Below are positions 52,608 to 56,415 of a stretch of 64,000 bases of DNA, piece after piece. This DNA comes from Brevundimonas subvibrioides (GTDB lineage Bacteria > Pseudomonadota > Alphaproteobacteria > Caulobacterales > Caulobacteraceae), in contig NZ_CP114542.1 of the NCBI RefSeq assembly GCF_027271155.1, positions 1,054,001 through 1,118,000 of the forward strand, given 5' to 3'. Position 1 is the first letter of the stretch, and each line of letters opens with the position of its first letter. Below the pieces are notes generated by a model. That model was not told the DNA's origin. It worked only from the letters and a program-made list of their open reading frames with translations, and ran no database searches. A program made the position numbers and the translations under genes.

Positions 52608-53279
52608 TCAGGGCGCGAAGCGGGCATTCTCGGGAACATCGGCGGGCGCGCAGTGCGTCCACTGGTCTTCCTCGACGCTGCCGTCCAGCGCAAGGCGGGC
52701 CGTGCGTTTCAGGGTGCCGGCGTCGAGGACCTCATAGCTGATGGTATAGGCCCCGGCGTCGCCGCCCAGTTCGGTCTGGCAGCGCTGGTCCTCGCGCCAG
52801 CTGTTGGGACCGGTCTGCAGCCACTGTCCCGGCTCGCAGCCGCCGAAGTCGATGGTGAAGGACGTCGGGGTGGCGAAGGCCAGGTCGCCATCGCCCGGCC
52901 AGACCTCGGCGCAGTCCTTGTCGCCCCGGGCATAGTAGCCGAGCGCCAGCGGGATGGGCTCGGGCTCGGTCTCGCCCTCGGCCAGGGTCACACCGGGGGC
53001 GGAGGCTGTGGCGTCCGGACCCAGCAGGTCGGCCAGGACGTCGTCCAGGCTGCGTGCCTGCGGGGGCTTCGGCTTGCCCGCCGGCGAACGGGCCGCAGGC
53101 GTCTGGTCCACAGGCGGCCGGGCATTCAGGCGCGGGTTCAACGTGGATTGCGCCGGGGCGGTGTTCAGCGCCCGGGTCGTGGCGCTGCCCTGATCCTGGG
53201 CCGAGGCGCCCGCAGCGAACAGGATGGCACCGCCCGTCAGGGCCAGAACCGTTCCGGAGCGTGTCGATCGAGCATTCAT
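52608..53279 (-). CDS. exported hypothetical protein
   Basis: The product has 223 residues with a signal peptide (ALTGGAILFAAGASAQ), a low-complexity Pro/Ala/Lys-rich linker (about 30-80) and a C-terminal domain with several cysteines (KDCAEVWPGD, FGGCEPGQWLQTG, QRCQTELGG, THCAPADV) that may form disulfides. I do not recognise a family. It is on the same strand as the displaced prfC tail. Confidence 0.7.
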   Translation of the reverse strand: MNARSTRSGTVLALTGGAILFAAGASAQDQGSATTRALNTAPAQSTLNPRLNARPPVDQTPAARSPAGKPKPPQARSLDDVLADLLGPDATASAPGVTLAEGETEPEPIPLALGYYARGDKDCAEVWPGDGDLAFATPTSFTIDFGGCEPGQWLQTGPNSWREDQRCQTELGGDAGAYTISYEVLDAGTLKRTARLALDGSVEEDQWTHCAPADVPENARFAP

Positions 53280-53333
53280 ACAGTCCCTTGGACCACGCGG
53301 TCGCGACAGAACAATGGCACGAAACCTGACGGT

Positions 53334-53489
53334 TCAGCCCCGCTCCTTCGTCTTGGTGAACGCCACCTTCGGGAAGCGTTCCATCACATAGCCGGTCTCC
53401 CACGACGACTTGGCCAGGAAGACCGGGGCCTGGTCGATGTCGCGGGCCATCTGGCCGCGGTATTTGCCCATGAAGGCCTCGACGTCGGC
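53334..53489 (-). pseudogene. displaced, diverged copy of the prfC 3' end
   Basis: This 156-bp segment repeats the last 51 codons plus stop of prfC (54769-54924) with 7 mismatches. Six of the seven are silent, including one serine coded TCG here and AGC in prfC; only one changes a residue (Ala for Asp). Upstream of 53489 the two sequences diverge abruptly. The open frame continues to an ATG at 53540 (MAMFFIRQTAPAPGGAAA), but this 68-residue product has no GTPase domain. The copy lies beyond the fic gene, so it looks like a tail left behind when DNA entered the prfC 3' end. Confidence 0.85.
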
Positions 53490-53550
53490 GGCGGCTCCGC
53501 CCGGCGCGGGCGCTGTTTGACGGATGAAAAACATAGCCACTTCCAGGCTT

Positions 53551-53577
53551 CCATATTATACAGATCGAATAATATGG
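53551..53577 (+). promoter_or_regulatory. inverted repeat in the fic promoter region
   Basis: A perfect 9-bp inverted repeat with a 9-nt spacer (CCATATTAT, spacer, ATAATATGG) lies 19 bp before the fic ATG. The block is unusually AT-rich against this background and resembles an operator overlapping a promoter. GGAG at 53576-53579 may serve as the ribosome site. Confidence 0.5.
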
Positions 53578-53595
53578 AGCGAGTGATACGGCGCT

Positions 53596-54768
53596 ATGAG
53601 CCATTCTGAACATAGCGGTGCGAGGGGGCGAAGTCAGAGGGCCGGGCGGTATGTCCGGCAGACGCGGGGCTATAGGGCCTTCATCCCGGACGTCCTTCCG
53701 CCGCCCGATCTCGATCTGAAGGGGCCGGTGACGGCGTCGCTGAGTCGCGCCGATCTCGCGCTCGGCCGACTTGACGGCGCGGTGGAGACCCTGCCGCATC
53801 CCGAACTGTTCACGGCCATGTATGTCCGGCGCGAGGCGGTGCTTTCCAGTCAGATCGAAGGCACACAGGCCTCGCTCGATGACCTTGTCGCCGCAGAAGC
53901 CCGGTTGCGGGGCGAAAGGCCTTTGGGCGATGTGAACGAGGTCATCAACTATACCGCCGCTCTCAATTTCGGCATCGCCCGACTGGCCGAACTGCCGGTA
54001 TCCGGTCGGCTGTTGCGGGAGATTCATGAAATCCTGATGTCGGGCGTGCGGGGTGGGCACGCCACGCCCGGCGCATTTCGAACCACACAGAACTGGATCG
54101 GGGCCGCCGGGGCGACACTGTCGGACGCCGTGTTCGTGCCACCGCCGCCCGAGACGGTGCCGGATCAGATCGGGGCCCTTGAAGACTTCCTGCACCGGCC
54201 CACGGAGTTGCCGTTGCTGGTTCAGGTCGGGCTGGCCCACGCCCAGTTCGAAACCATCCACCCCTTTGTCGATGGAAACGGCCGGTTGGGACGGCTGCTG
54301 ATCACCTTCCTGCTTTGCGAGCGGTCGGTTCTGGGCAAGCCGGTTCTCTATGTCTCACTGACCCTGAAAAGGCGGCGTGAGGAGTACTACAGGCGACTTC
54401 AGGCCGTTCGCGACGACGGCGCATGGGAAGAATGGCTGATCTTCTTTCTGGACTGCGTGGCCGAAGCGGCGCTGGACGCGGCCCGTCTGGCGAAGAGCAT
54501 TCTCAGTCTTCGGGAAGCGCATCGCGACGCGATCGTCAATGAAATGGGCGCGCGGGCAGGCAAGGCGATCCGGCTCCTCGAGCGGCTGTATCGCGATCCC
54601 TATATCGAGGTGAACGAGGCGGTCAGGGTGCTGGGCGTCAGCTATGCGAACGCCAATACCATCGTCTGGGACATGGAGAGGCTCGGCATTCTGAGAGAGG
54701 CGACGGGCCAGCAACGCAACCGCATCTTCGTGTACGAGGACTATATCGCCCTGTTCCGCGAGCTGTAG
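53596..54768 (+). CDS. Fic-family AMP transferase, class II
   Basis: The product has 390 residues. It has the catalytic loop HPFVDGNGRLGR (H222 to R233) of Fic enzymes, which transfer AMP (or another nucleotide) from ATP to protein hydroxyls. The N-terminal inhibitory helix reads SSQIEG (S84, E88, G89), the class II self-inhibition motif (S/T)xxxE(G/N). A C-terminal winged-helix-like region (about 320-380) follows. No separate antitoxin gene is needed or seen. Its TAG ends at 54768, directly against the prfC stop, and it is the only gene here between the two prfC tails. Role in stress or defence is inference. Confidence 0.9.
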   Translation: MSHSEHSGARGRSQRAGRYVRQTRGYRAFIPDVLPPPDLDLKGPVTASLSRADLALGRLDGAVETLPHPELFTAMYVRREAVLSSQIEGTQASLDDLVAAEARLRGERPLGDVNEVINYTAALNFGIARLAELPVSGRLLREIHEILMSGVRGGHATPGAFRTTQNWIGAAGATLSDAVFVPPPPETVPDQIGALEDFLHRPTELPLLVQVGLAHAQFETIHPFVDGNGRLGRLLITFLLCERSVLGKPVLYVSLTLKRRREEYYRRLQAVRDDGAWEEWLIFFLDCVAEAALDAARLAKSILSLREAHRDAIVNEMGARAGKAIRLLERLYRDPYIEVNEAVRVLGVSYANANTIVWDMERLGILREATGQQRNRIFVYEDYIALFREL

Positions 54769-56415
54769 TCAGCCCCGCTCCTTCGTCTTGGTGAACGCCA
54801 CCTTGGGGAAGCGCTCCATCACATAGCCCGTCTCCCAGCTCGACTTGGCCAGGAAGACCGGGGCCTGGTCGATGTCGCGGGCCATCTGGCCGCGGTATTT
54901 GCCCATGAAGTCCTCGACGTCGGCCTTCTCTCCGTCGATCCAGCGGGCCTCGGCATAGGGGCTGTGTTCGAAGATGACTTCCAGGCCGTATTCCTCGCCC
55001 AGCCGGTCGGCCATGACCTCGAACTGCAGCTGGCCCACCGCACCGACGATGAAGTCCGCGCCGATCTCGGGCCGGAACAGCTGGGTCACGCCTTCCTCGG
55101 CCAGACCGTCCAGGGCCTTCTTCAGGTGCTTGGCCTTCAGCGGATCCTTGACCCGGACGCGCTGCAGGATTTCGGGGGCGAAGTTGGGCAGTCCGGCGAA
55201 GCGGATCATCCCGCTTTCCGACAGGCTGTCGCCGACGCGCAGCACGCCGTGGTTGGGAATGCCGATCACGTCGCCGGCGAAGGCGTCCTCGGCCAGTTCC
55301 CGGTCGCTGGCGAAGAACATGATCGGGGCGTTGACCGACAGCTGCTTGCCGGTGTTCTGGACCTTCAGCTTCATGCCGCGCTTGAACGAGCCCGAGGCCA
55401 TGCGGAACATGGCGATCCGGTCGCGGTGGTTGGGGTCCATATTGGCCTGGACCTTGAAGACGAAGCCGGTGACCTCGTCCGAGCCGGGCTGGATGGTCAG
55501 TTCGACGGGGGCCGGGGCGTTGCGGGTCTCGGGCGGGGCCTCCTTGCGCGCCGGCATGACTTTCGGCGGGGGCGCCCATTCGCCGATGGCGGCCAGCAGT
55601 TCGTCGATGCCGAAGTGGCGCAGGGCCGAGCCCCACAGGACCGGCGTCATATGGCCCTCGAGGAAGGATTGGCGGTCGAAGGCGGGGTAGCCGCCGGTCA
55701 CCAGTTCGGCCGCCTCAATCAGCTCTTCCTGCTCGCCCGGCTCGAAATAGCGGGCGGCCTCGGACAGGGGCAGGGGAGGGGGATGGCCGGCATCCTCGAC
55801 CGCGCCGGGGACCTTGCGGGCATAAGGCTGGAACCGTCCGGTGCCCATCTCGACCATGCCGCGCAGGCGGTTGCCGCTCTGGGCCGGCCACCAGACGGGG
55901 GCGGGGTCCAGTTGCAGCTTCGACGCGATCTCGTCCAGCAGCTCCAGCGGATCGAGGGCCTCCCGGTCCAGCTTGTTGATGAAGGTGATGATCGGGATGT
56001 CGCGCAGACGGCAGACCTCGAACAGCTTCAGCGTCTGGGGCTCGATGCCCTTGGCGGCGTCCAGCACCATGATGGCGCAGTCGGCGGCCGTCAGGGTGCG
56101 ATAGGTGTCCTCCGAGAAGTCCTCGTGCCCCGGCGTGTCGAGCAGGTTGAACATCTTGGCCACGCCGTCGGACGTGGTGTGCTCGAACGTCATGACCGAG
56201 GCGCTGACCGAGATGCCGCGCTCCTTCTCGATCTTCATCCAGTCCGACTGGGTCCGCCGGTTCTCGCCCCGCGCCCGCACCGCCCCCGCCGCCCGGATGG
56301 CCCCGCCGGACAGCAGGATATGCTCCGTCAGCGTCGTCTTGCCGGCGTCGGGGTGCGCAATGATGGCGAAGGTTCGCCGGCGGGCGGCCTCCTCGGCGAG
56401 GGTCAGTTTCGACAT
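54769..56415 (-). CDS. prfC: peptide chain release factor 3
   Basis: RF3 is a translational GTPase that recycles RF1/RF2 from the ribosome. The 548-residue product has the P-loop HPDAGKTTL, the switch II DTPGHEDF, NKLD and the standard RF3 length. The last 51 codons have a near copy 1.3 kb away at 53334-53489. Because fic begins 19 bp after an AT-rich repeat and ends at this stop codon, the present tail may be an incoming replacement. The reading frame is intact, so the protein should work. Confidence 0.97.
   Translation of the reverse strand: MSKLTLAEEAARRRTFAIIAHPDAGKTTLTEHILLSGGAIRAAGAVRARGENRRTQSDWMKIEKERGISVSASVMTFEHTTSDGVAKMFNLLDTPGHEDFSEDTYRTLTAADCAIMVLDAAKGIEPQTLKLFEVCRLRDIPIITFINKLDREALDPLELLDEIASKLQLDPAPVWWPAQSGNRLRGMVEMGTGRFQPYARKVPGAVEDAGHPPPLPLSEAARYFEPGEQEELIEAAELVTGGYPAFDRQSFLEGHMTPVLWGSALRHFGIDELLAAIGEWAPPPKVMPARKEAPPETRNAPAPVELTIQPGSDEVTGFVFKVQANMDPNHRDRIAMFRMASGSFKRGMKLKVQNTGKQLSVNAPIMFFASDRELAEDAFAGDVIGIPNHGVLRVGDSLSESGMIRFAGLPNFAPEILQRVRVKDPLKAKHLKKALDGLAEEGVTQLFRPEIGADFIVGAVGQLQFEVMADRLGEEYGLEVIFEHSPYAEARWIDGEKADVEDFMGKYRGQMARDIDQAPVFLAKSSWETGYVMERFPKVAFTKTKERG

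Follow-up and report, generated by a model that had tools for sequence, protein, structure and literature searches.

The 5′ end of prfC, the gene for release factor 3 (RF3), is the insertion site of the SXT/R391 elements. Another kind of insertion leaves a long duplication of its target, and the original papers on it are said to be those of Nobusato et al. in 2000 and Furuta et al. in 2010. In the available parts of PMC3874152, PMC1643837, and PMC3031569, restriction-modification genes are described to insert with long, variable target duplications. The minimal mobile element, as the available text of PMC3082526 defines it, lies between two conserved genes in Neisseria strains. In this work, we describe a locus of Brevundimonas subvibrioides where a fic gene stands at the 3′ end of prfC, between two copies of the prfC tail. 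The locus belongs to a stretch of 64,000 nucleotides, here called the window (assembly GCF_027271155.1, contig NZ_CP114542.1, positions 1,054,001 to 1,118,000 of the forward strand), from a genome of one contig that is 100% complete. We consider it probable that an incoming Brevundimonas fragment, which carried a SoFic-like gene attached to a prfC tail, underwent recombination with the host prfC tail.

The prfC gene is intact and encodes an RF3 of 548 aa, which scores above the cut-off of the NCBIfam prfC equivalog; its stop is numbered codon 549, and the duplicated tail comprises codons 498–548 and the stop. As the original prediction had stated, the last 156 bp of prfC (54769–54924) recur at 53334–53489 with seven mismatches in 156 nt (96% identity). 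This is not a chance match, since the best other ungapped match to the tail within the window reaches only 74/156. The single fic gene that had been placed in the gap was also recovered (53596–54768, with Fic_N and Fic domains); it is the only gene coded between the two tails, and its TAG directly abuts the prfC stop. The mismatches sit in five codons. Six nucleotides are silent, as had been claimed, three of them in Ser 526, which is TCG in one copy and AGC in the other, and the remaining three in silent Thr, Glu, and Pro changes; the seventh, which the earlier account left unnamed, is an Asp/Ala difference at codon 502.

The genus search included 131 Brevundimonas genomes, and for 119 genomes, plus ten more, the prfC 3′ end was examined together with some downstream DNA; the duplicates L016, L229, and L259 and the loci without a prfC end, L079 and L190, were left out of the counts. 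A complete second tail occurs in two of the 119 genomes, some of whose downstream flanks are short (from 278 nt): the window genome and G118, both with fic. None occurs in the ten more, and 28 other genomes presented only short, weak matches to the pooled tails. Neither a second tail always present without fic nor a duplication older than the genus, the outcomes that would have spoken for another history, was seen.

The tail stranded beyond fic is the native one by these comparisons, since it continues into the DNA found downstream of prfC in G120 and fits the sister genome G079 better. In G120, which has no fic at prfC, the DNA directly behind the prfC stop matches the continuation below 53334 (78.8% over 240 nt), the arrangement anticipated for a fic-free relative with an intact prfC. 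In G120 and others the target is single and uninterrupted, with one tail and then the native downstream gene, a 223-aa gene that begins 52–54 nt after the prfC stop in G102, G120, G091, and G089. Sister G079 matches the DNA below 53334 at 91.9% over 333 nt, but behind its own 3-kb insert.

The affinity of each tail to the host lineage, which had been proposed as a check, separates the copies: out of 156 sites, the stranded tail has 8 differences from the G079 tail and the used tail 13. Along prfC, the differences from G079 amount to 52 of 1572 sites before codon 525 and to 10 of 75 beyond (Fisher p = 0.0003), with a boundary picked after looking and some of the 10 lying at the altered end of G079. 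At each of the six nucleotide sites that separate the copies after codon 525, the stranded tail has the G079 base. For the last 72 nt of the used tail, the closest sequences are those of the fic-bearing G107 and of copy 1 of G118 (four differences each), followed by G019 and G108 (five each). From these comparisons, the used tail resembles the host as far as codon 525 and looks foreign beyond, with a change of affinity near that codon. The proposal that a foreign prfC tail restored the host gene and pushed the old tail aside is supported by the G120 and G079 comparisons and by the conflicting trees described below, but the foreign-looking part is limited to roughly the last 24 codons and does not span all 156 bp.

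The fic gene abuts prfC at the identical nucleotide in the window, G118, G107, and G022, and in G108 as a 74-aa remnant, and the fic-prfC joint is old for this reason; fic lies 7 nt from prfC in G119, 0.8 kb off in G087, and 2.5 kb off in G075. The distant congener G118 shares the cassette and its left joint, and has a second tail of its own; its left flank differs from that of the window at 6 of 106 nt and the joint is identical. G107 resembles the left flank as far as the joint and has a different sequence beyond, so the joint of the window and G118 looks derived and single.

Between the window and G118, fic is 96.4% identical and the first 1,480 nt of prfC 87.3%; between G118 and G107 the values are 85.3% and 92.5%, respectively. 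The prfC tree of 38 chosen genomes placed the window with G079 and G118 with G105 as sisters (100/99 each), in conflict with the fic tree, where the window and G118 are sisters (100/100). The presence of fic at prfC requires four changes, and neither sister genome has fic there: G105 has no fic match anywhere, and G079 has only distant ones elsewhere (43% and less). Since fic is far more alike than prfC between the window and G118 and both sisters lack fic at prfC, comparative evidence indicates that fic moved between species. An old vertical inheritance, with prfC-fic ancestral in the genus, lost in most lineages, and the second tail as an old relic, would explain the abutment at one nucleotide in five genomes, but faces the conflicting trees, the two sisters without fic at prfC, and a complete second tail seen in only two of the 119 genomes; we regard it as extremely improbable.

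Carriage of a close fic by plasmids or phages was also considered and rejected. The best-listed plasmid matches have about 55% identity, with one of 1,111 plasmid records in the 60–80% band and the rest below, and none of the 32 phage records reaches 60%. Outside the genus, no prfC match was found in the nine fic loci examined.

A plain insertion with long target duplication would make both tails the host's own, duplicated when fic entered and diverged since. Such events are published for restriction-modification genes, as far as the available parts of those papers go; the tails agree with each other over codons 503–525 in both the window and G118, and a near-identical pair of 385 nt at another locus (L360, see below) fits an event of this kind. 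However, the six sites after codon 525 all match G079 in the stranded tail, the TCG/AGC switch requires several changes, and the end of the used tail is closer to the fic-bearing G107 and G118. For the prfC locus, this explanation seems to us very unlikely.

The import of a donor tail with fic, which we prefer, can be described in steps. The incoming DNA would be a prfC tail, fic, and the left flank, from another Brevundimonas. The fragment end beyond the fic promoter would have joined the prfC end of the fragment, at codon 498, making a circle that may have integrated via one crossover between codons 502 and 526. The exchange is placed there because the tails are identical between these codons, the used tail being foreign-looking and the stranded tail native beyond them. 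The product would read host body, donor tail end, fic, left flank, and host tail, and prfC would stay whole since host body and donor tail end are joined. In an alternative form, a linear fragment would undergo one exchange in each tail. The joint, being common to the window and G118, would have arisen once, and the cassette would afterwards have moved with prfC tail sequence on both sides.

As vehicle, our guess is natural uptake or a gene transfer agent (GTA), together with RecA. The window genome codes for a GTA gene (PF13547) and for ComEC (PF03772). A GTA_TIM gene (G000:C1:1167591-1168475) is part of an open frame of 1,234 aa, at a distance of about 59 kb from prfC-fic. Caulobacter GTAs carry fragments of about 8.3 kb that undergo recombination, according to the available part of PMC9632790. 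In E. coli, 14 sequenced clones were ascribed to a single crossover of circularised DNA, with duplications of 109–950 bp, in the portion of PMC3240628 at hand.

Several points weigh against this proposal. At about codons 517–525, the window genome and G118 each have their own variants in both of their copies, so that either conversion toward the host or a donor that is host-like there must be assumed. The circle is deduced from comparison, not observed. The donor was not found, and the end of the used tail is still 4/72 away from its nearest relatives. The tail end of G079 was altered by the TPR insertion of G079 itself, which partly weakens that comparison, and three of the six discriminating sites fall in one codon. 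In addition, the G118 contig ends 159 nt past its second tail, and no relative with the empty site of G118 was found.

A site-specific integrative element would be a third way of restoring prfC: a recombinase supplied from elsewhere would act on an attachment core at the 3′ end of prfC, and the prfC end of the element would complete the gene. The identical left joint in the window and G118, the restored gene end, and the many different genes at the prfC site across the genus are compatible with it. The original prediction had pointed to a likeness with such elements while seeing no integrase, and the second part stands: fic alone is coded between the tails, and the matches to PF00589, the one recombinase family searched, are six in the genome, each of them about 659 kb or more from the locus. 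The likeness itself does not hold well, as the joints show no fixed attachment, lying at codon 498 in the window and in G118, at 32 nt from the end of prfC in G092, and at the stop in G079. A similar architecture recurs with other cargo and at other genes, and is thus not peculiar to this fic. With an insert coding only for fic, PF00589 matches this distant, and joints that differ between cargoes, an integrase is unlikely, and we hold the integrative element as a whole to be unlikely too. Association with a tRNA was rejected, given that ARAGORN found no tRNA in the window.

Other cargo at the prfC site has a related arrangement. G079 and G092 present a related TPR gene close 3′ of prfC. The second contig of G092 begins with 1,239 nt that match the G079 insert at 85%, followed by 32 nt of prfC tail and the native downstream gene. 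Read this way, G092 is a case of a stranded prfC tail with other cargo and another joint, the link between its two contigs being their homology to G079 alone. A related TPR gene of G109 (5% contamination) stands away from prfC, near a glmU-like gene (named by eye), with 65–70 nt of prfC tail attached (L079 7939-8007, G109:C33), which correspond to RF3 residues 526–548 by tblastn and whose stop is not intact. The search for such stubs listed matches to about E 5e-4, and weaker ones may exist. Across the genus, other genes are found 3′ of prfC; nine of the ten examined have a Pfam match, in no case to an integrase. In the prfC 3′ flanks of G007, G040, and G081 (L180, L179, and L085), a second CTGA stands shortly behind the prfC stop, before the usual downstream DNA, and is possibly a minimal trace of an earlier tail replacement that brought no cargo.

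Table 1. Features of the prfC-fic locus, in positions of the window.
Feature	Positions	Strand	Basis
prfC (RF3, 548 aa), host gene; body native to about codon 525	54769..56415	-	NCBIfam prfC; prfC tree; G079 differences
Tail copy 1, in use; 54769-54840 (codons 526-stop) carries differences and looks donor-derived	54769..54924	-	Tail and G079 comparisons
Stretch identical in both tail copies (codons 503-525), likeliest place of exchange	54841..54909	-	Inferred from mismatch positions
fic, 390 aa, SoFic-like protein adenylyltransferase, cargo	53596..54768	+	Pfam Fic_N, Fic; PADLOC SoFic; motifs
Left flank of cassette (region upstream of fic), meeting prfC codon 498 at 53489/53490	53490..53595		G118, G107 comparison
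Inverted repeat 5′ of fic, possible operator	53550..53578		Similar repeats in genus fic loci
Tail copy 2, stranded; native from about codon 526 onward	53334..53489	-	G079, G120 comparison
Open frame of 66 aa: 15 left-flank codons fused to stranded RF3 tail	53334..53534	-	Also open in G118
Native prfC downstream DNA with 223-aa gene (52608-53279)	52608..53333	-	Relatives G102, G120, G091, G089, G079

The fic product presents the Fic_N and Fic domains of Pfam and matches the PADLOC SoFic model (E 7.9e-116, 385 bits). It is below the cut-off of the NCBIfam SoFic equivalog (148.4 bits vs 550) and is related by sequence to solved SoFic chains. It carries HPFVDGNGR at residue 222 and SSQIEG at residue 84, which we take to be the active and the inhibitory motif, respectively, of class II Fic proteins. 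With this class II layout and the PADLOC match, the protein resembles SoFic, an abortive-infection toxin acting against phages, although it differs in falling under the equivalog cut-off; SoFic and the Fic class scheme with its class II layout are described in the available text of PMC12249575. By family resemblance only, fic probably encodes a one-protein anti-phage toxin.

The 66-aa open frame has its start codon in the left flank and is in frame with the stranded tail, yielding an RF3 C-terminal fragment; in G118 the frame is also open, with six residue differences from the window. Such a fragment could be a small protein beside fic. AT-rich inverted repeats like that at 53550–53578 occur 5′ of fic in six of the seven genus loci examined, and the one in the window is perhaps an operator for the C-terminal domain of the Fic protein. 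A scan of 53300–53800 with promoter and terminator consensus found none, and Rfam at gathering score gave no RNA element match in 53000–55200.

Direct repeats around related genes were also searched beyond the genus. The set of the SoFic family outside Brevundimonas prfC comprised 130 scored loci, 72 from genome contigs (the best 80 of 588 candidates) and 58 from 385 drawn alphaproteobacterial genomes (60 of the listed places of this second draw). L088 and L089, both Caulobacterales and on the same contigs as G107 and G075, were left out, and loci with less than 300 nt on one side were unscored (6/78 and 2/60 for SoFic, 4/73 for the control). Direct repeats on both sides were found at 13 of the 130 SoFic loci. 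With equal 900-nt flanks, this compares with 4 of 69 other defence loci (p = 0.43), which are 1/10 for Abi_2, 1/29 for Mrr, and 2/30 for AbiEii. Against offset windows at the same loci, which are not accessory genes, the counts are 13/130 and 10/406 (p = 0.0007). The idea that stranded ends are special to SoFic was rejected, the rate not being above that of the three other defence families. Because the rate is above that of offset windows but not above that of other defence families, stranded ends look like a trait of accessory defence genes rather than of fic. In this control set, an Abi_2 gene (L388) and an AbiEii gene (L425) lie between direct repeats of 116 nt (94%) and 135 nt (96%), respectively, assigned to gene ends by eye.

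Seven of the 13 SoFic repeats are 3′ parts of unrelated genes, as assigned by Pfam and reading frame: those for GroEL (L124), HsdM (L118), a 4Fe-4S protein (L110), a GH57 enzyme (L099), a YhhN protein (L107), an ABC ATPase (L362), and a 379-aa protein without Pfam match (L360; 385 nt, 99.5%). In L107 and L362, the reading of the displaced copy does not extend to the corresponding stop. The remaining six include the operator-like repeats of L123 and L131 and a tRNA-like one in L160, all by eye, a gene 5′ end in L357 (Pfam), and the repeats of L373 and L374, which by eye had no assignment to a known gene. The repeats that flank fic in L131 and L123 are of the CCAT...ATGG type. In L373 (4963-7164), fic forms the continuation of a 733-aa open frame, the upstream part of which is HsdM-end-like by eye, a possible HsdM-Fic fusion.

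Eight tail pairs (window, G118, and six others, L107 being left out) were tested for the position of their differences. No displaced copy has an inner stop over the compared stretch, and third codon positions account for 51 of the 105 differences (p = 0.0009), or 44 of 92 without the two Brevundimonas pairs (p = 0.003). This excess is as expected if the tail copies diverged as working genes. The signal is not in every pair (14/36 in L099, 0/2 in L360), and for the L360 pair a recent duplication fits equally well.

By analogy, the locus works like both the long target duplication and the minimal mobile element. Like the former, it has a lone defence-type gene between direct target repeats of the order of 100 bp, no mobility gene, and a target that is single and uninterrupted in near relatives. 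It differs in that the cargo is fic instead of a restriction-modification gene, and in that one copy looks imported: an origin of both copies from the recipient fails for the end of the used tail only, the middle being host-like. As in the minimal mobile element, varied whole-gene cassettes (fic, TPR, and others) stand beside a conserved gene without mobility genes. That element enters by homologous recombination, which the mosaic used tail fits, but here the only far-side homology is the second tail, the variation is between species, the far neighbour varies, and prfC sequence comes with the cassette at either side. Homology at one end only and a duplicated homologous end also recall homology-facilitated illegitimate recombination, or the single crossover of a circularised fragment, as reported in the available part of PMC3240628, where most of the E. 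coli clones examined had the homologous end duplicated, although those were laboratory events and the prfC-fic case is read from comparison only. With SXT/R391 the locus shares prfC as insertion site, but those are large conjugative elements with an integrase.

In a limited literature search, no paper naming both Brevundimonas and prfC was found, and eight listed papers, of 50 with two of Fic, prfC, and release factor 3, were by title SXT-element or unrelated ones. What appears new here is the evidence for the import of one repeat copy, none being met in the available parts of PMC3874152, PMC1643837, PMC3031569, and PMC3082526.

We suggest tentatively, and with more doubt than confidence, that what is called insertion with long target duplication may often be the import of a donor gene end. 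Lone defence genes (SoFic, probably Abi_2 and AbiEii) would travel with that end as homology, and RecA alone would place them behind the same gene in other species, with the gene completed and the old end stranded. A copy with gene-end homology on both sides would then be a mobile unit without a mobility gene. The spread of single defence genes without integrase or transposase is an open question, for which the accounts of long target duplication, in their available parts, give no mechanism. This locus offers a sister genome, a native empty site, and one cassette in two species, and import against duplication becomes testable; the stranded gene end is a mark that can be searched in any genome.

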